Shown here in pieces: positions 10,610-20,582 of a stretch of 32,864 bases of DNA. Source of the DNA: Candidatus Roizmanbacteria bacterium GW2011_GWA2_37_7 (GTDB lineage Bacteria; Patescibacteriota; Microgenomatia; UBA1406; GWC2-37-13); the NCBI GenBank assembly GCA_000990445.1, contig LBTJ01000003.1:1-32864 (forward strand), in the 5' to 3' direction. Below the pieces are notes generated by a model. It made no database searches. It was not told where the DNA came from and worked only from the letters and a program-made list of their open reading frames with translations. The position numbers and the translations under genes are program-made. The first letter of the stretch is position 1. The number at the start of each line of letters is the position of its first letter.

Positions 10610-12736
10610 ATGAAAATAATAAGCAAGCTATTTCATTCAAAGACTTTGAAAAAAAGACTGTGGATTTTCTCATTTATCAGTTTTGGCGGACTTTTTGTTT
10701 CGCTCATAACAGCAGTCTTTGTGTATTCATATATATTTGTCGGCTTACCTTCGCCATACTCACTCAAAGATTACAAGGCAGTGCCGATTTCAAGTCAGAT
10801 TTATGATCGAAATGGTCAACTTTTATATGAAGTCTATCGCGATGAAAATAGAACGCCAGTCAAACTCACAACACTTCCAAAACAACTTATTGAAGCAACG
10901 ATTGCTGTTGAAGATAAAGATTTCTACAAACACGGAGGGATTTCTCTTATTTCAGGAATGCTTCGTGCGATAAAAGAAAATCTTCAAAGCAGCAGACTGC
11001 AGGGTGGCTCAACTATCACACAGCAGTTGGTCAAAAGCGCACTCTTGACGCCTGAACGAACCATACAAAGAAAAATAAAAGAAATAATTCTAGCAATCTG
11101 GGTTGAACAAATTTTTTCAAAAGATGAGATACTGGAAATGTATCTCAATCAAGTGCCGTATGGAGGCTCTTCTTATGGTATCGGTCAGGCAGCAAAAACA
11201 TATTATGAAAAAACACCGGATGAACTTGAGCTTCATGAAGCAGCGCTCCTGGCCGGACTTCCTCAAGCTCCAACTACGTACTCGCCTCATACCAATCCTG
11301 ATCGTGCAAAAGCCAGACGAGACAATGTGTTGAGAAGAATGTATGAAGAAGAATATATCACCGAACAGCAGATGGATGCTGCTATGAAAAAACCCATTGA
11401 AGTCCTGCCTCCAAGAACTAAAATTAAAGCGCCTCATTTTGTGTTTGAAGTAAAAAAACTTCTTGAGCAAGAGTATGGACTCAAGCAACTTGAAGAAGGC
11501 GGTCTAAAAGTGACAACAACGCTTGATCTTGAAATCCAAGAGGAAACAGAAAAAATTGTTCAGGAGGAGATTGAGGATATAGCTCGGCTTAAGGTTACAA
11601 ACGGCGCAGTTCTGGTGACCCGTCCGCCAACAGGCGAGATTCTTGCGATGGTCGGATCAGTGAATTATTTTGATGGCGGATCAGGAGCATTCAATGTTAC
11701 TACTGCGGGTACTCGGCAGCCAGGATCATCGATTAAACCCATAAATTATGCTGTTGGCATTGAGAGAGGGATTGTAACCGCATCAACCATGTTTCTCGAT
11801 GTACCCACATGTTTTTCAAATCCAGGGCAGCCGAAAGCGTATTGTCCAAAAAATTATGACGGATCATTTCATGGGCCGGTTCAACTTCGATATGCTTTAG
11901 CAAATTCATACAATATTCCAGCAGTCAAAATGCTCGCATTTAATGGAGTCAAAAATTTTATCGCATCTTCTTCTGCATTTTTGATAACGTCATTTAAGAA
12001 TCCGTCACAATACGGGCTTAAAACCGGAAAAACAATCTATGAATTGAAAGATTATAATTTTGTTCAAGATGTAAAAGAACCGATCGACCGACCAAATTAT
12101 CTCTCCATGAAAGCCGAAAAAGCAATTTCAGAAGGGACCGCATTTATTATTTCTCATATTCTTTCCGACAACAATGCACGTTCTTCTGCTTTTGGTACAA
12201 ACTCGGAGCTGGTGATCAAAGACAAAACCGTGTCTGTTAAAACAGGTACTACAAACGATCTGCGGGACAACTGGACGATTGGATATACGCCGAATTTTGC
12301 TGTGACTGTATGGGTTGGAAATAATGATTTTACACCGATGGCGCAAGGAATTGCTTCCGGACTGACTGGTGCGTCGCCTATCTGGAACCGTACCATGACG
12401 TATATCCTGGAAAATCAACCCGATCTACCTCCAGTCAAACCTTCATCGGTTATCGGCATGCAGGTTTGCAGTGATACCGGTGTGATAGCTGGAAAACAAG
12501 AAGGGGGCTACAACTGTCCGACACGATTTGAATATCTGATCCAAGGGACAAACTCAACCGCAAATGTATACCGCAAACAAGTCCCGGTCAACCGAGATAC
12601 TGATCAGTATCTCCCAGATCCAAATAACCCCGCAATTGAGATGCGTGAAAAAACAGTGATAAAAGATATGTTTGGTGAATACTGCGTGGACTGCAATCAC
12701 GAAGGTGAAACACGCCAGACTGTAACGGTACAATAA
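10610..12736 (+). CDS. Class A penicillin-binding protein (glycosyltransferase/transpeptidase)
   Basis: Single N-terminal TM; GT51 motifs (EDKDFYKHGGIS, LQGGSTITQQLVKSALLTPERTIQRKIKE); transpeptidase SxxK (TRQPGSSIKPI), SYN (ANSYNIPAVK) and KTGTT motifs. Confidence 0.96.
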   Translation: MKIISKLFHSKTLKKRLWIFSFISFGGLFVSLITAVFVYSYIFVGLPSPYSLKDYKAVPISSQIYDRNGQLLYEVYRDENRTPVKLTTLPKQLIEATIAVEDKDFYKHGGISLISGMLRAIKENLQSSRLQGGSTITQQLVKSALLTPERTIQRKIKEIILAIWVEQIFSKDEILEMYLNQVPYGGSSYGIGQAAKTYYEKTPDELELHEAALLAGLPQAPTTYSPHTNPDRAKARRDNVLRRMYEEEYITEQQMDAAMKKPIEVLPPRTKIKAPHFVFEVKKLLEQEYGLKQLEEGGLKVTTTLDLEIQEETEKIVQEEIEDIARLKVTNGAVLVTRPPTGEILAMVGSVNYFDGGSGAFNVTTAGTRQPGSSIKPINYAVGIERGIVTASTMFLDVPTCFSNPGQPKAYCPKNYDGSFHGPVQLRYALANSYNIPAVKMLAFNGVKNFIASSSAFLITSFKNPSQYGLKTGKTIYELKDYNFVQDVKEPIDRPNYLSMKAEKAISEGTAFIISHILSDNNARSSAFGTNSELVIKDKTVSVKTGTTNDLRDNWTIGYTPNFAVTVWVGNNDFTPMAQGIASGLTGASPIWNRTMTYILENQPDLPPVKPSSVIGMQVCSDTGVIAGKQEGGYNCPTRFEYLIQGTNSTANVYRKQVPVNRDTDQYLPDPNNPAIEMREKTVIKDMFGEYCVDCNHEGETRQTVTVQ

Positions 12737-12880: not shown

Positions 12881-13663
12881 CTACACTGGAATTTGCTTCT
12901 GAAAACCAAAACGATACATATAGAGAATAACTGCAATACCCCCATGGATCCGAAAGCCAATCCGTATAGCGTCCATATTCATAAAACTCGTGTGTTTGAA
13001 AAGCGGTTCTTTGGTCAAAACAATGCTCGAATATATAAAAAAGACAATAAGAAACACGGTAATAAAATCAAGGAATCGTGACGAAGAAATGTTTTGATGA
13101 TTCTTTAGAGTTTCCCGAATCAACTTTTTAGCATTCAATCCTACAGCTGCCGCAAGTGCTATCATGATCAATCTTCCAAGAGGTGCTATCGGGAAAAAAG
13201 GGAGAAAAATACTAAAACTCAATGTCACCATACAAAATAAAATAAACATGCGTTTGAATTTTGACTCACTCAAAAATATTTCATTCTGGTCTCGGGAAAC
13301 AAGACGTTTTGCAATATACAACGCCAGAATTGTCTGTACTGGAACCCACCAGACAAAGTTAACAAATACGAGATTAATCCAGTTGACGCTGAGAAACTGC
13401 GGTGCGATATATACGACACTCGGTCCCAAAACCTGCCACAAAAGACCAAAAAAAAGCGCCACCCATCCAATGGTTATATCGTGCAATTTATACCGAGTGA
13501 TAAGGTATTCAAGACAGGCAAAATAAAAAAAATAGTTGAGGAATATTGCGATTAGTAAAGTCTGGTTTACAACCAGATTGTTTACTCCTCGAAGAGAGTA
13601 TTCAGCAAGAACATTGAAGAAGGAAGCGATAATAACAATTTTCCAGCTTGTGTTGAGTTTCAT
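12881..13663 (-). CDS. Hypothetical multi-pass membrane protein
   Basis: 260 aa with about seven hydrophobic segments. It starts 5 nt after the stop of the upstream yerC-like gene on the same strand. Confidence 0.7.
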   Translation of the reverse strand: MKLNTSWKIVIIASFFNVLAEYSLRGVNNLVVNQTLLIAIFLNYFFYFACLEYLITRYKLHDITIGWVALFFGLLWQVLGPSVVYIAPQFLSVNWINLVFVNFVWWVPVQTILALYIAKRLVSRDQNEIFLSESKFKRMFILFCMVTLSFSIFLPFFPIAPLGRLIMIALAAAVGLNAKKLIRETLKNHQNISSSRFLDFITVFLIVFFIYSSIVLTKEPLFKHTSFMNMDAIRIGFRIHGGIAVILYMYRFGFQKQIPV

Positions 13664-13668
13664 ATGTA

Positions 13669-13968
13669 TTATTTTAATAGTTGCAATACACTATTATATC
13701 CCCCGCATCCATTCTTGAGCCATAATGCTACACGAGTAACAGTGGTGGTTGAGGTTTTCATTTTCTTTGCGATTTCTATATATGACAGATTCGTGGTGTA
13801 AAGTAATTGCGCTATTGCGATTCTGCGACCAAACTCTTCAAGTTCTTTGGGTGTCAGCAAATCACGAAGTAAATTCAGTGCTTCTTGTATTGTTTGAACT
13901 TTAGTAATGGCTTCTGCAAGAAGTTTCTCGTTTACTGAATGGGAAATATAGTTTTTCTGGTTTGTCAT
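13669..13968 (-). CDS. TrpR-family regulator (YerC/YecD/HisR-like)
   Basis: 99 aa; TrpR/YerC layout (LLRDLLTPKELEEFGRRIAIAQLLYTTNLSYIEIAKKMKTSTTTVTRVALWLKNGCGGYN), with HTH YIEIAKKMKTSTTTVTRV. Confidence 0.88.
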   Translation of the reverse strand: MTNQKNYISHSVNEKLLAEAITKVQTIQEALNLLRDLLTPKELEEFGRRIAIAQLLYTTNLSYIEIAKKMKTSTTTVTRVALWLKNGCGGYNSVLQLLK

Positions 13969-13974
13969 GAAACA

Positions 13975-13980
13975 ATTATA
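13975..13980 (-). promoter_or_regulatory. Extended -10 (TGT-TATAAT) for the yerC-like gene
   Basis: Minus strand reads gTGTTATAATtgtttcATG; only 6 nt separate TATAAT from the start codon at 13968. Confidence 0.6.
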
Positions 13981-13984
13981 ACAC

Positions 13985-14013
13985 TTGACAAATCAATATC
14001 ATCATGTTAACAT
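13985..14013 (+). promoter_or_regulatory. his operon promoter: -35 TTGACA, 17-bp spacer, -10 TAACAT
   Basis: TTGACA at 13985-13990 and TAACAT at 14008-14013. The predicted transcription start is about 14020, the A of the leader-peptide ATG. Confidence 0.65.
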
Positions 14014-14021
14014 GCTAATAT
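13996..14021. promoter_or_regulatory. Palindromic operator candidate overlapping the his -10
   Basis: Perfect 12-bp palindrome catgttaacatg (14003-14014). Extended dyad over 13996-14021 pairs at 11 of 13 positions. The GTTAAC core matches the centre of the E. coli TrpR operator, and a TrpR-family gene is adjacent. Confidence 0.6.
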
Positions 14022-14082
14022 GAGTCAACAATCATTGAATACAACTGTTTCTATTCATCATCTCCTCGCATCTGCGGGGTAA
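14020..14082 (+). CDS. hisL: Histidine operon leader peptide MSQQSLNTTVSIHHLLASAG
   Basis: 20-codon ORF with tandem His codons (14056-14061) immediately 5' of attenuator hairpins and upstream of hisG; its stop codon overlaps the antiterminator arm. Confidence 0.75.
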   Translation: MSQQSLNTTVSIHHLLASAG

Positions 14083-14132
14083 ATTTGTATTGAAAACTTT
14101 TCAATTATCACCCCGCGAAGGCGGGGTTTTTT
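14064..14132 (+). promoter_or_regulatory. his attenuator with mutually exclusive hairpins 1:2, 2:3 and 3:4
   Basis: 1:2 = cctcgc (14064-14069)/gcgggg (14074-14079), one G-U. 2:3 = gcggggt (14074-14080)/accccgc (14110-14116), brought together by nested hairpin ttgaaaa-c-ttttcaa (14090-14104). 3:4 = accccgc (14110-14116)/gcggggt (14121-14127), then a T-tract. Confidence 0.82.
14110..14132 (+). terminator. Intrinsic (Rho-independent) terminator of the his leader
   Basis: accccgc-gaag-gcggggtttttt: 7-bp GC-rich stem, 4-nt loop, T-run. Confidence 0.85.
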
Positions 14133-14164
14133 AATGGCTCATTTTAATTATTTATTATATTTTT

Positions 14165-15040
14165 ATGAAAACTGATTTTAACAATAACAATCTTAAACTA
14201 GCAATCCAAAAAAAAGGCAGACTCACAGACGATACGATTCTTTTTCTTGAAAATGCTGGTCTCATACTTGATACCGATGGTCAAAGGCTATTTGCCAAAT
14301 GCAGAAATTATCCTTTAGATATCGTATTTGTCCGTGATGACGATATTCCCGATTTTGTTGAAAACAGTACGGTCGATATCGGTATTGTGGGTGAAAATAT
14401 TCTGTACGAAAAAAATTCACGAGTACAAAAAATGTTATTGCTAAACTTTGGATATTGCCGACTGGTAATCGCAGTACAAAAAGATTTACCAATTTCAAAT
14501 ATCGGTGATCTCAACAAGTCTAAAATAACTACCTCGTATCCTCGAAGTGTTCAACGATTTTTTAATAGTCAAAACATCCCCGTTGATATTCTCGAAGTAA
14601 AAGGATCGGTCGAGCTCTCTCCTGCTCTGGGGATTTCTTCGGTTGTTGCCGATCTCACATCAACCGGCAGTACGCTTGCCATTTGCGATCTGAGGATCAT
14701 TGAAACAATTTTTGAATCACAGGCAGTACTTATTTCGCGAACAAATATCAACAATAGAAGGCAAGGGCTAATTGACAGCCTTATTTTCCGGTTTAAAGCG
14801 TTTCTAGAAGCACAAAAATACAAGTACGTCATGATAAATGCACCAGAAGAAAAACTCGAACAAATAACAAAAATCGTACATGGTCTCAAAAGTCCCACCG
14901 TTACTCCTCTTGCAATAAAGGGTTGGATATCTATCCAGACAGCAATACAAGAAAATGTATTTTGGGAAAAGATAGAAAAAATAAAAGAAATAGGCGCTTC
15001 GGGAATAATTGCATTACCAATTGAAAAATTAATTATATGA
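14165..15040 (+). CDS. hisG: ATP phosphoribosyltransferase, long form
   Basis: LAIQKKGRLTDDTILFLENAGL; DIGIVGENIL; C-terminal regulatory-type domain (GLKSPTVTPLAIKGWISIQTAI...GASGIIALPIEKLI). Confidence 0.95.
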   Translation: MKTDFNNNNLKLAIQKKGRLTDDTILFLENAGLILDTDGQRLFAKCRNYPLDIVFVRDDDIPDFVENSTVDIGIVGENILYEKNSRVQKMLLLNFGYCRLVIAVQKDLPISNIGDLNKSKITTSYPRSVQRFFNSQNIPVDILEVKGSVELSPALGISSVVADLTSTGSTLAICDLRIIETIFESQAVLISRTNINNRRQGLIDSLIFRFKAFLEAQKYKYVMINAPEEKLEQITKIVHGLKSPTVTPLAIKGWISIQTAIQENVFWEKIEKIKEIGASGIIALPIEKLII

Positions 15041-16344
15041 AAGTAATTAAACTTAAGGATTTATCTAAACAGGATTATTTAAGAATCATCAATCGATCAG
15101 CTGGTAGCAATGAATCAATTATGCCTTCAGTCCGAAAGATTATGGATGATGTGAAAAATAATGGCGATAAAACAATATTGGAGAAATATCAATCACGTTA
15201 CGGTGCTGATAACTATAAAACGATTCAGGTAACAAAAGAAGAAATTAAGGCAGCTTACAAATATGTGAATATACAAACAATCAAGGCATTAAAGCAAATG
15301 ATTAAAAATATTACTCTTGTACAAATATCCCAACTTCCTTCCAAAAAAGACGCTGTGGTTAGATCAGAAAAAGGGATTAGAGTTTGGAGAGAATGGCGAC
15401 CGATTCAAAAAGTCGGGCTATATATTCCAGGTGGAAAAGCTATATACCCTTCCTCTGTTCTGATGAGCGCGATTCCAGCTCAAATTGCCGGCTGTAAAGA
15501 AATCATCATGTGCTCCCCTCCAGGATCAGATGGACAAATACCAGCAGTAACGCTTGTAGCAGCTGACATGATTAGGTTGAAGAAAATATATAAAGTCGGT
15601 GGCGCTGAGGCAATTGCCGCCATGACTTACGGGACAAAAATAATCTCTAATGTTTATAAGATTTTCGGTGCCGGCAATTCTTATGTAACCGCTGCAAAAA
15701 TGTTAGCTCTTGAAAAAATAAGCATTGATATGCCAGCCGGTCCTTCTGAAGTATTTATAATCGCTGATGAAACAGCAAATCCTTCTTTTATTGCCGCTGA
15801 TTTATTGGCTGATGGTGAACACGGAGAAGATTCCGCCTGTGTATTGTTAACAACATCAGAAAAGATTGCTCGACTAACCATAATTGAAATCGAAAAGCAA
15901 TTAAAATCGCTAGAAACTCAAAATCGAACAAGAGAATCTTTAAGAAAATACGGACTGTTTGCCGTAGCGGATAATATGGATGAAATTACTAGATTCACAA
16001 ACGAATATGCACCAGAGCACTTAGAAATAATGATAAAAGATTCTGAACGGCTGGTTAAAGAAATCACTGATGCCGGTTCAGTATTTTTAGGCAATTGGAC
16101 ATCAAAATCAAGTGGTGATTATGCAACCGGTGCTAATCACGTCTTACCGACAGGTGGTATGGCAAAAATGTATTCACCACTTGGAGTTGATTCTTATGGC
16201 AAATGGATGCAGGTCCAAGAATGCACGGAGCAAGGATTAAAAAATATAAAGGATACCATCGAAACAATTGCCATAGTGGAAAAATTACCGGCTCACAAAC
16301 AATCAGTTTCCATACGATTTATTAATAATGAAAAAAACTTATGA
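15037..16344 (+). CDS. hisD: Histidinol dehydrogenase
   Basis: VGLYIPGGKAIYPSSVLMSAIPAQIAGCKEIIMCSPP; IDMPAGPSEVFIIADETANPSFIAADLLADGEHGEDSACVL; YATGANHVLPTGG. Confidence 0.97.
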   Translation: MKVIKLKDLSKQDYLRIINRSAGSNESIMPSVRKIMDDVKNNGDKTILEKYQSRYGADNYKTIQVTKEEIKAAYKYVNIQTIKALKQMIKNITLVQISQLPSKKDAVVRSEKGIRVWREWRPIQKVGLYIPGGKAIYPSSVLMSAIPAQIAGCKEIIMCSPPGSDGQIPAVTLVAADMIRLKKIYKVGGAEAIAAMTYGTKIISNVYKIFGAGNSYVTAAKMLALEKISIDMPAGPSEVFIIADETANPSFIAADLLADGEHGEDSACVLLTTSEKIARLTIIEIEKQLKSLETQNRTRESLRKYGLFAVADNMDEITRFTNEYAPEHLEIMIKDSERLVKEITDAGSVFLGNWTSKSSGDYATGANHVLPTGGMAKMYSPLGVDSYGKWMQVQECTEQGLKNIKDTIETIAIVEKLPAHKQSVSIRFINNEKNL

Positions 16345-17429
16345 AAAATATTAATTTAACCAGATTTATAAGAAGTGATTTAGTTCAATATGAAGAATAT
16401 AAAGCAGTTCCGTCTGCTTATGATATTAGTGAGCAAAATCAAGTGGCGATTGAAAAGATTGACAAACTTGATGCCAACGAAAGTGTGTTTGGTCCAACAA
16501 AAAATCTTTATAAAGCGTTAGCAACATATAAAGGATATCGGTTTTATCCCGACCCTGAATATAAACGACTAAGACGAGCTATTGGTAAATATGTTGAAAT
16601 GCCTGACAACTTTATAGCAGTTGGCTCCGGTGGAGATGAACTAATTGATCTTTTATTAAGACTTATTCTTGAACCAAAAGATCAGGTAATAAACTCTCCA
16701 CCAACTTTTGGTAGTTATTCCACTTCTACATTTTTAAATCGTGGCGTTCTTATAAATATTCCCAGAATAAAGGATTTTTCGATAGAAATTGAAAAGATAC
16801 TTAATGCTATAAATGATAAAGTCAAATTGATTATCGTCTGTAATCCAAATAACCCTACTGGTAACTTGACCAATATCAATTATATTATTAAAATTCTTGA
16901 TACCCAAAAACTTGTATTAATTGATGAGGCGTATTTCGAATTCTCTGGTAAAACAGTTCTTCCACTTATTAAAAAGTATCCTAATCTTATTATTCTTCGC
17001 TCTTTTAGTAAATGGGCTGGGATTGCTGGATTAAGATTGGGATATCTTGTCGCTTCGCCTTATTTAATAAGACAAATAATGAAAATTAAATCCCCGTATA
17101 ATATAAATGTTGCGGCTGAACTGGCTGGATTAGTCGCTTTAGAAGACTACAAATACCAAGAAAGAATTATTAACGAAATAATAATAGAACGCAATACCCT
17201 TTATAAGGGTATAAAGAAAAATAGTAAACTGATAATTTATCCTTCTTGTGGCAACTTCTTATTTGTTCAATCTAATGAAACTTTATTCTTAAAACTTAAG
17301 AAGGGCTTTCAACAAAATAAAATTGCTGTTCGATATTACGATTCTGCTCTTACAGGAAAAGCACTTCGGATAACGGTAGGAACATCTACTCAAAATAATC
17401 GGGTTTTAGAAATTATTAACAACATATGA
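16341..17429 (+). CDS. hisC: Histidinol-phosphate aminotransferase
   Basis: KLDANESVFGP; YRFYPDPEYKRLRRAIGKY; CNPNNPTGN; VLIDEAYFEFSG; SFSKWAGIAGLRLGYLVAS. Confidence 0.95.
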   Translation: MKNINLTRFIRSDLVQYEEYKAVPSAYDISEQNQVAIEKIDKLDANESVFGPTKNLYKALATYKGYRFYPDPEYKRLRRAIGKYVEMPDNFIAVGSGGDELIDLLLRLILEPKDQVINSPPTFGSYSTSTFLNRGVLINIPRIKDFSIEIEKILNAINDKVKLIIVCNPNNPTGNLTNINYIIKILDTQKLVLIDEAYFEFSGKTVLPLIKKYPNLIILRSFSKWAGIAGLRLGYLVASPYLIRQIMKIKSPYNINVAAELAGLVALEDYKYQERIINEIIIERNTLYKGIKKNSKLIIYPSCGNFLFVQSNETLFLKLKKGFQQNKIAVRYYDSALTGKALRITVGTSTQNNRVLEIINNI

Positions 17430-18067
17430 AAAACAATTTTGACGGAATAATTTTTGATATGGATGGAATACTTGTCGATGTTTCAAAATCCTATCGTGAA
17501 GCAATTAGGCTAACGGCTGGTTATTTTTTAAATCGCGAAGTTAAAAAAGACGAAGTAGATAGGATTAAAAATATCGTTGGGATGAATAATGATTGGGATG
17601 CAACATATAAGCTTATAAATAACCCTAGAATTTCCTACGAAAAAGTTAAATCATATTTTCAAAACCTTTATCTTGGAAATTCGAAAAGAAAAGGATTAAT
17701 TGATAACGAACCGACATTAATATCTAAAGCAATATTAAAGCAGCTGAAAGAGAAATATAAGAAACTGGCGATTGCTACCGGCAGACCAAGGAAAGAAGCT
17801 CAATACGTAATTGAAAAGAATAAATTGCAAGGATTATTTGATTGTATCGTTGTTATGGAAGATATTATCAATGGCAAACCGGCGCCCGATATGCTTTTTG
17901 CTGTAATTAAAAAAATGAAGTTTAGAAATACTGTTTATGTTGGCGATAGTCCAAATGACGTTATTTCTGCTAATAAAGCCGGAATACCGTGTATCTATGT
18001 AGGAACACAAAAAATAGGGTCAGAGAGATTCTCGTCTATATTACAAGTTATTAAATATTTACTATGA
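17426..18067 (+). CDS. HAD-family phosphatase in the his operon, candidate histidinol-phosphatase
   Basis: HAD motif I (IIFDMDGILVDVSKSYREAIRLT), motif II (AIATGRP), motifs III/IV (KPAPDM, VYVGDSPNDVISANKAG). Lies between hisC and hisB with 4-nt overlaps; the operon has no other phosphatase. Confidence 0.85.
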   Translation: MKNNFDGIIFDMDGILVDVSKSYREAIRLTAGYFLNREVKKDEVDRIKNIVGMNNDWDATYKLINNPRISYEKVKSYFQNLYLGNSKRKGLIDNEPTLISKAILKQLKEKYKKLAIATGRPRKEAQYVIEKNKLQGLFDCIVVMEDIINGKPAPDMLFAVIKKMKFRNTVYVGDSPNDVISANKAGIPCIYVGTQKIGSERFSSILQVIKYLL

Positions 18068-18654
18068 AAAGAATTTCAAAAGTAGTTAGAAAAACTAATG
18101 AAACGGAAATTTCAATCAATCTCAATATTGATGGCAGTGGAAAAAGGAAAATCGAGACTCCTATCGGTTTCCTTAATCATATGTTATATCTATTTTCCAA
18201 ACATGGCTTATTTGATCTGGATATAAAAGCTAAAGGAGACACTTTTATTGATGATCACCACACTGTTGAAGATATTGGTATTGTTTTAGGTCAAGCATTT
18301 GCTGAAGCATTAAAAGATAAAAAGGGGATTAATCGGTATGGTTTTTTTATCCTTCCTATGGATGAAGCCTTGGCAAGCGTAGCAATTGATTTTGCAGGAC
18401 GATTTTCCTTCACTCAGCAGTGCGAATTTACGAGAGAAAAAGTTGGCGATCTAAGCACAGAGTTGGTATATGATTTTTGGGATGCATTTGCCCAGAATGC
18501 AAAAGCCAATGTATATATAAAGGTTGAAAATGGAAGAAACGATCACCACAAAATTGAAGCTATTTTCAAAGCAATGGCAAGAGCCTGTCGCATGGCCTGT
18601 GAACGGGATAAACGTAATCAATCAACAGTTCCATCAACAAAAGGAGTTCTATGA
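18064..18654 (+). CDS. hisB: Imidazoleglycerol-phosphate dehydratase
   Basis: TPIGFLNHMLYLFSKHGLFDL; DDHHTVEDIGIVLGQA; NDHHKIEAIFKAMARA. Confidence 0.97.
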   Translation: MKRISKVVRKTNETEISINLNIDGSGKRKIETPIGFLNHMLYLFSKHGLFDLDIKAKGDTFIDDHHTVEDIGIVLGQAFAEALKDKKGINRYGFFILPMDEALASVAIDFAGRFSFTQQCEFTREKVGDLSTELVYDFWDAFAQNAKANVYIKVENGRNDHHKIEAIFKAMARACRMACERDKRNQSTVPSTKGVL

Positions 18655-19265
18655 TAGCAATTATTGACTACGGCATAAACAATTTGGAAAGTGTAAGAAA
18701 TGCTTTAAACAAGCTTGTTGTCCAAACTGTGGTTACAAATAAACGTGAAATGATTCAAAAAGCAGATGCATTGATACTTCCGGGAGTCGGTGCTGCGGCG
18801 ATGGGAATGAAGAACTTGAAAGAACGCAAACTTGATAAAATTATCATAAACGACGTGAGAAAAGGAAAACCTATCCTAGGAATATGTCTTGGTATGCAAC
18901 TTCTTATGAGTAAAAGTGATGAAGGAGATATTAATTGTTTGGGTTTGATAAAAGGAAACGTAAAAAAATTGAGTAGCGAAATGAAAATTCCACAAATTGG
19001 ATGGAATCAGGTATGTTTAACCGACTCAGAGTCGGCACTATTTACAAATATTCCTGATAATAGTGATTTCTATTTTGTCCACAGTTATTATTGCAAACCT
19101 TATGATCAGAATATTGTCGCAGGAATAACAAAATATGGACAGGAATATTGTAGTATTCTAATAAAAAATAACATCGTCGGTGTTCAATTTCATTTGGAAA
19201 AAAGCGGAATGTCGGGATCTCTATTGCTGAAAAACATTATTAATTATTTTACGCAACTATGTTGA
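18651..19265 (+). CDS. hisH: Imidazole glycerol phosphate synthase, glutamine amidotransferase subunit
   Basis: [29 protein letters not shown]; nucleophile motif [20 protein letters not shown], where FHPEKS is the usual form. Confidence 0.96.
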
Positions 19266-20014
19266 CAAAGCGAATCATCCCATGTCTTGATATGACAGAA
19301 GGGAAAGTGGTAAAGGGTATACAGTTTGTCGATTTTCGTGACGCCGGTGATCCTATTGTTCTGGCTAAAAAATATGATGAGCAAGGAGCAGACGAGCTCG
19401 TATTTTTGGATATTACAGCAACAGTTGATAACCGAGATATTCTCCTTGATGTAGTACAAAAAACTGCAAAAGAGGTTACTATCCCATTTACCGTGGGTGG
19501 TGGTATACGAAAAAAAGAAGATATGCAAAAAGTACTTCGAGCCGGCGCAGACAAAGTGGGCGTAAATACCGGAGGATTTAATAGACCAACTTTGATATCG
19601 GAATGCGCTCAATCATTTGGAAGCCAATGTGTGGTTCTCTCTCTTGATGCAAAACGCGTGAAAAATCAATGGAATGTGATTATAAATGGAGGAAGAACTG
19701 ACACGGGATTATCAGCTATAAAATGGGCACAACAAGCAGTAGCGCTTGGTGCCGGTGAAATACTCCTTACCAGCATAGATACCGATGGTATGAAGCAAGG
19801 ATTTAATATTGAGCTTACAAAAGAAGTTACGAATGTGGTTAACGTACCGGTGATTGCATCTGGAGGTGCGGGGAAACTACAAGATTTTAAAGATATATTT
19901 GTTGAAGGCAATGCCGATGCAGCACTTGCCGCTTCACTTTTCCACTTTGGAGAATGCACAATACAACAGGTCAAAGAGTATTTAAATGATAACAATATTT
20001 CTGTACGATTATGA
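19259..20014 (+). CDS. hisF: Imidazole glycerol phosphate synthase cyclase subunit
   Basis: [82 protein letters not shown]. Confidence 0.97.
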
Positions 20015-20310
20015 AACTCACACCAGCAATAATCCAAGATATTAAAACTCAAGAAGTGTATATGCTCGGCTACATGAACGATGAAGCTCTTTCTCTTACT
20101 CAGAAAACAGGCTATGTATATTTTTGGAGCAGAAAAAGAAAAAAATTGTGGAAAAAGGGTGAAACATCGGGCAATACATTGTTGGTCAAACAAATATCTA
20201 CTGATTGTGATGATGACACGCTACTTGTTCACGTGGAGCTCAATGGAAATACAGTTTGTCACACAGGAAAAAAATCGTGTTTTTATAAAAATATAACCAG
20301 AAAATTATGA
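20011..20310 (+). CDS. hisI: Phosphoribosyl-AMP cyclohydrolase
   Basis: VYMLGYMNDEALSLTQKTGYVYFWSRKRKKLWKKGETSGN...DCDDDTLLVHVELNGNTVCHTGKKSCF. Confidence 0.95.
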   Translation: MKLTPAIIQDIKTQEVYMLGYMNDEALSLTQKTGYVYFWSRKRKKLWKKGETSGNTLLVKQISTDCDDDTLLVHVELNGNTVCHTGKKSCFYKNITRKL

Positions 20311-20582
20311 CACTAGAAGAACTCTATACCATTATTGAAACAAGAATAGAATCGAGGAAAAAAAATTCGTATATTTCTCGATTGTTTGAAAGCGGAACTG
20401 ATCAGATTCTTAAAAAAGTTGGAGAAGAGGCAATAGAAGTCGTCATAGCAGGGAAAAATAAAAATAGACAAGAAATTATTTCTGAATCTGCCGACCTGTT
20501 ATTTCACGTACTTATTTTACTATGTGAGAAAAAAATACAGCTTAAAGATATCTATGATGAGCTTGAGGCAAGAAGAAAATAA
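20307..20582 (+). CDS. hisE: Phosphoribosyl-ATP pyrophosphatase
   Basis: LEELYTIIETRIESRKKNSYISRLFESGTDQILKKVGEEAIEVVIAGK...ESADLLFHVLILL. Confidence 0.93.
   Translation: MTLEELYTIIETRIESRKKNSYISRLFESGTDQILKKVGEEAIEVVIAGKNKNRQEIISESADLLFHVLILLCEKKIQLKDIYDELEARRK

Follow-up and report, generated by a model that had tools for sequence, protein, structure and literature searches.

The short region ahead of hisG in a Candidatus Roizmanbacteria genome contains a leader reading frame with tandem histidine codons, a set of competing RNA helices and an intrinsic terminator, and very probably functions as a ribosome-mediated transcription attenuator for histidine. The feature belongs to a known kind of element, the leader-peptide attenuator, but occurs in a phylum for which no report of this kind was found among the open-licence papers searched. 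The DNA that was analysed (the window, 32,864 nucleotides at full length) is a contig of a 0.96 Mb MAG. The operon under the proposed control lies on the + strand and begins with hisG in its long form (14165–15040; TIGR00070 and TIGR03455 both over cut-off), followed on the same strand by hisD, hisC, a HAD phosphatase, hisB, hisH, hisF, hisI and hisE (15037–20582).

All parts of the leader are on the + strand. The reading frame (MSQQSLNTTVSIHHLLASAG, 14020–14082) can be read directly, with its ATG at the predicted +1, and includes two tandem His codons, CAT CAT (14056–14061), as the putative stall site. Arm 1 (CCTCGC, 14064–14069) begins 2 nt past these codons and has arm 2 (GCGGGGT, 14074–14080) as its partner; arm 2 can also pair with arm 3 (ACCCCGC, 14110–14116), and arm 3 in turn with arm 4 (GCGGGGT, 14121–14127), the helices 1:2, 2:3 and 3:4 being mutually exclusive. 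The 3:4 helix, together with a T6 tract (14127–14132) located 32 nt 5′ of hisG, is an intrinsic terminator ahead of this first structural gene, and no other terminator-like site occurs within 13600–14300. No forward gene is present between the PBP gene, which ends at 12736, and the leader, a distance of more than 1.2 kb, and the terminator can therefore act only on the leader transcript. Direct reading and folding place the frame, the His codons, the four arms and the T-tract exactly where the initial annotation had put them. The AT hairpin nested between arms 2 and 3 is also present, but it folds at 14089–14105 instead of the 14090–14104 given earlier, and the neighbouring gene called yerC is divergent from hisG.

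The stretch 14060–14140 folds at −27.3 kcal/mol (z −3.6), which was equalled by none of 200 shuffled sequences. The competing helices were evaluated separately by shuffling the segment from the His codons to arm 3, with dinucleotides kept and the terminator held fixed. None of 300 shuffles matched the energy of the 2:3 helix in the window (p 0.0033), and one of 300 matched that of the 1:2 helix (p 0.0066). Combined over 14 free-standing leaders, the shuffle p values are 4e-9 for 2:3 and 1e-10 for 1:2; for a set of 17 loci in which close relatives were thinned they are 4e-9 and 6e-7, respectively.

The starts of the his operons of relatives were gathered from many Patescibacteria by a HisG search. 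The same design is found in 11 Microgenomates loci, the window included, which represent three families and seven genera (g1, g27, g6, g8, g20, g37 and g284, with the window's genus counted). L003 and L004 are from the window's genus, L006, L007, L008, L009, L012 and L014 from other genera of its family, L005 from another family of the same order and L015 from the Levybacteria, another family of the class. The window's genus and the relatives in its family are Ca. Roizmanbacteria (Patescibacteria, Microgenomates), in agreement with the CPR origin that had been suspected from the letters of the sequence. The leader frame, the His pair, the 1:2 and 2:3 complementarity and the terminator are all kept in each of the 11 loci, and the loss of the first three beside a retained terminator, which had been named beforehand as a refutation, is not seen in them. 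The number of tandem His codons is exactly two throughout, written as CAT CAT but as the synonymous CAT CAC in L007; a leader with two His codons, which the initial annotation considered unusual, is instead the rule of this clade. Arm 1 starts 1–2 nt past the His codons, and arm 2 starts 12 nt past them in nine loci and 14–15 nt in two, spacings at which a ribosome of the generally known footprint would cover arm 1 but leave arm 2 free when on the codons, and would reach over arm 2 when at the stop. The leader stop codon abuts arm 2 in seven of the 11 loci and is found 12–14 nt further on in four.

Since MAFFT misplaced the arms of diverged loci in the leader alignment, the arms were aligned manually. 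Canonical pairs then account for 234 of 242 arm pairs (73 of 77 in 1:2, 86 of 88 in 2:3 and 75 of 77 in 3:4), and the compensatory changes for which a search had been recommended are indeed present, with 12 columns altered on both sides (four, three and five in 1:2, 2:3 and 3:4). When arms were re-matched between loci, the observed counts were reached in 3 (1:2), 17 (2:3) and 0 (3:4) of 5000 cases, in a test that takes the hand-aligned arms and ignores the relatedness of the loci. The position of the nested hairpin is occupied by hairpins of unrelated sequence in L003, L004, L006, L008, L009, L012, L014 and L015.

From the arrangement of these elements, a mechanism can be proposed. RNA polymerase would start at about 14020, and translation would begin at the leader ATG, probably with no Shine-Dalgarno sequence involved. 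When charged tRNA-His is scarce, we infer that the ribosome halts on the His pair and masks arm 1; 2:3 would then pair ahead of the synthesis of arm 4, the terminator would not form and hisG to hisE would be transcribed. When tRNA-His is charged, the ribosome would run on to the stop codon, where arm 2 ends, and cover both arms 1 and 2, allowing 3:4 to pair and transcription to end at the T-tract; in the case of no translation, 1:2 would form first and termination would again be favoured. The position of the ribosome was mimicked by masking RNA, with each locus folded separately. If a ribosome at the His codons is masked, arm 3 pairs upstream in 11 of 11 transcripts ending just past arm 3, and if a ribosome at the stop codon is masked, the terminator forms in each of the 11 loci. 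Folded without constraint, the whole window leader adopts at equilibrium 1:4 enclosing 2:3, not 1:2 with 3:4, so the switch would have to rely on the order of folding during transcription. With the stalled ribosome masked, the equilibrium of the full-length window RNA slightly favours the terminator (−17.7 kcal/mol), and L009, L012, L014, L015, L037 and L084 behave in the same way, so that anti-termination would depend on 2:3 being formed before arm 4 is synthesized. Folding order is generally held to matter in known attenuators. The reading as a ribosome-dependent his attenuator, as it was originally put forward, is supported by the competing helices, by the shuffle tests and by the His codons kept in 11 loci. 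The initial annotation did not mention the probable leaderless start, the predicted HisR-type operator, the T-box-like leaders that take the place of the attenuator in sister families, or the repressor-tail version, all of which are described below.

The promoter of the leader is predicted to consist of a −35 box TTGACA (13985–13990, + strand) and a −10 box TAACAT (14008–14013, + strand), with the leader ATG 6 nt past the latter. A −35 box TTGAC(A/T) with a 17-nt spacer is present in 12 of 12 aligned loci, and the geometry TTGAC(A/T)-17-TANNNT-6/7-start recurs in L001, L003–L006, L008, L009 and L082, of which L082 is from another class and uses a GTG start codon. L037 has an ATG at the equivalent place, but there it opens another short frame, and L007, L012 and L014 are exceptions, having a leader with a 5′ UTR. 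Two facts make a leaderless mRNA probable: the recurring geometry places the +1 on the start codon, and of the 29 genes in the window only 2 have a Shine-Dalgarno-like motif before them. The choice of start codon rests on the promoter prediction. The alternative that survives best accepts attenuation as real, but lets translation begin downstream (TTG 14035) or transcription elsewhere, which would leave the N-terminal half of the frame untranslated. A second possible −10 box, TAATAT (14016–14021), is preceded by TGC and would put the +1 inside the frame, so that the in-frame TTG would be needed; moreover, the predicted +1 of L007, L012 and L014 does not fall on the ATG. The repeated occurrence of the −35/17/−10/6-7/start geometry in the loci listed above nevertheless argues against such a start, which we regard as rather unlikely.

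Attenuation with a leader starting at ATG 14020 is probably combined with repression. Divergent from the his operon lies a hisR-like gene of the TrpR/YerC family (13669–13968, − strand; Pfam PF01371 Trp_repressor, 68 bits), with a predicted −10 box TATAAT 6 nt before its ATG (13975–13980, − strand, a consensus match only). The best PDB match of its product is 3g1c, to which it is closer than to E. coli TrpR; 3g1c is a TrpR-like protein of E. eligens that was named HisR (PMC9413887). Palindrome comparison points to a predicted HisR operator, ATCATGTTA-N6-TAATATGAG, at 14001–14024 (perfect core CATGTTAACATG, 14003–14014), which spans the −10 box and the start codon of the leader and is also overlapped by the predicted promoter of the hisR-like gene. 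In the relatives the N6 palindrome scores a mean of 5.9 matches out of 9 (11 loci), compared with 2.75 after shuffling, the best one being CATGTTA-N6-TAACATG in L005; in L003 and L004 it is displaced by 8 nt. The published HisR motif ahead of his genes is TTTA-N6-TAAA, a 20-bp palindrome with an N6 centre (PMC9413887). The half-site in the window's order reads CATGTTA as against the published cacTTTA, the N6 layout is alike, and in L015 (Levybacteria) the TTTA-N6-TAAA form is found. Since an operator-like palindrome is accompanied by an adjoining divergent HisR-like gene, the operon is probably under double control by a HisR-like repressor and an attenuator, as in E. coli trp, and the protein bound over the −10 box and leader start would probably also repress initiation, giving two tiers. 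The TrpR-family gene and the palindrome over the promoter might even be taken to indicate that HisR repression alone controls the operon, with the hairpin as a constitutive terminator and the short frame as incidental. However, there is no upstream + strand gene in need of termination, and different genera retain the tandem His codons as well as the 1:2 and 2:3 helices although their sequences differ, which makes this explanation very unlikely.

A translation-free RNA sensor, for example a T-box that binds tRNA-His itself or a riboswitch for a small molecule, is the least probable explanation and a highly improbable one. In its favour, leaders of T-box type stand at the corresponding position in other families of the class (L017, RF00230). 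The window, however, has neither T-box motif nor match to the RF00230 covariance model, and the conserved part of its leader of about 110 nt is the reading frame with the His codons. Among the other Rfam models, RF00514 (His_leader) gave no match in a cmscan of the window, nor in one of the leader alone with hits accepted up to E 10, and no leader family scored above its gathering score for the window leader.

The families with T-box-like leaders include Gottesmanbacteria, Paceibacterota and others. These divergent T-box leaders 5′ of Patescibacteria his operons, in L017 and similar loci, are well under the Rfam gathering score, as illustrated by L017:1111–1330 (RF00230, E 6.6e-4, 32 bits, gathering score 93). 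They are often accompanied by a tRNA-His gene ahead of hisG, and L007 and L014 possess an attenuator plus such a gene. The tRNA-His (GTG) gene is located between the attenuator or T-box and hisG in L007 (1394–1468) and L014 (1287–1361), and likewise in L010, L017, L021–L023, L025, L029, L032, L033, L043 and L065; the regulated transcript therefore seems to include tRNA-His itself. Exchange of T-box and leader-peptide control is known between other groups (PMC2965389). A highly structured RNA element with a fold z of about −8 and no Rfam match sits between the terminator and hisG or tRNA-His in L005 (G075:C14:97672–97748) and L014 (G046:C10:45947–46051), and a further copy is found beside a TrpR-family paralogue (G046:C10:65844–65909). 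L065 and L032 have leader frames ending in HHTYS and HHSR, with a conserved C-rich sequence past the stop codon and no clear terminator, and may use another mechanism.

The surprising part is a version of the attenuator in which leader and repressor appear to be joined. In eight loci of other Patescibacteria classes (L039, L040, L047, L077, L079, L080, L081 and L087), a co-directional TrpR-family gene directly 5′ of hisG ends in a His-rich tail, e.g. VVHHHKSASSGKRVT, followed by competing hairpins. The C-terminal tails contain HHH, HQHH or HHHH, encoded by tandem His codons, and over nine repressor-tail loci, the weak L086 included, the shuffle p is 9e-6 for 2:3 and 0.03 for 1:2. L082 has the tail as a free leader, without a repressor domain, and a His tail is absent from the divergent HisR-like proteins of G000, G004, G005, G042 and G075. 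Genomes of f107 possess an extra paralogue with an HRHHR tail that does not adjoin hisG (L121, L122 and L125), so the His residues may in part be there for a different reason. Two further candidates were not counted as repressor-tail attenuators, L086 showing no significant competing helices and L078 no terminator stem by eye, and the HH within the FHHGxGGY motif of some TrpR-family proteins (L044, L048, L067 and L104) lies in the conserved fold and was for this reason not taken as a leader. From sequence comparison, we give an even chance to the view that in several Patescibacteria lineages the his repressor itself supplies, as its C-terminal tail, the leader peptide of the attenuator. If this is true, a stall caused by shortage of His-tRNA would have two simultaneous effects, blocking termination and leaving the repressor chain incomplete. 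The free-standing leader of the window and the repressor-tail form would then represent a single system in two states.

Two observations concern the gene content of the operon. The HAD hydrolase between hisC and hisB (17426–18067) is a candidate histidinol-phosphatase, with a weak match to the histidinol-ppas domain model. The his operon of the window (14165–20582) and of its genus has no hisA; G004, G005 and the close G036 have hisF only, most other family members that were checked carry hisA beside hisF, and a broken hisA-like stretch is present on another contig of the window's genome (G000:C79:4259–4829).

Several known systems can be compared. The E. coli trp operon is controlled by both the TrpR repressor and the trpL attenuator, and the window shares this two-tier logic of a TrpR-family repressor with a leader-peptide attenuator, but for histidine instead of tryptophan, in another phylum and with a shorter leader. 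E. coli hisL has seven His codons. The window leader resembles hisL (RF00514) in having a His-codon leader peptide and competing helices upstream of hisG, but differs by its two His codons, by the lack of a sequence or Rfam match, by being probably leaderless and by the predicted HisR-type site on its promoter. In hisL of E. coli and other gammaproteobacteria, the leader peptide is combined with pause, anti-terminator and terminator helices 5′ of hisG (PMC9413887). Predicted His-leader attenuators of Firmicutes also consist of a short frame with tandem His codons and alternative hairpins (PMC9413887; hisS/hisZ leaders, PMC2965389), but they have three to five His codons and were sought only in lineages without HisR and T-box control, whereas the window has a HisR-like gene and site. 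With the HisR regulon of Firmicutes (PMC9413887) it shares the TrpR-family regulator and the N6-centred palindrome, although the half-site differs and binding in the window is predicted. Translation of an attenuator leader peptide from a leaderless mRNA is described for ilvBNC of C. glutamicum (PMC11857589) and for mycobacterial poly-Cys leaders (as cited in PMC13236596), thus for other amino acids and another phylum, the Actinobacteria. Among the open-licence papers searched, amino acid sensing by leader peptides is reported for other phyla only, mainly Proteobacteria, Actinobacteria and Firmicutes; we found no paper there that joins Patescibacteria with leader-peptide attenuation, or the candidate phyla radiation with a T-box riboswitch.

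These findings suggest that small, uncultured CPR genomes which still make histidine regulate its synthesis tightly, and that families differ in how they sense tRNA charging, some through a leader peptide and others through a T-box. The system in the window would be a compact one, in which a repressor site and a leaderless start, both predicted, overlap with an attenuator within about 130 nt, and there are relatives whose leader peptide seems to belong to the repressor itself.
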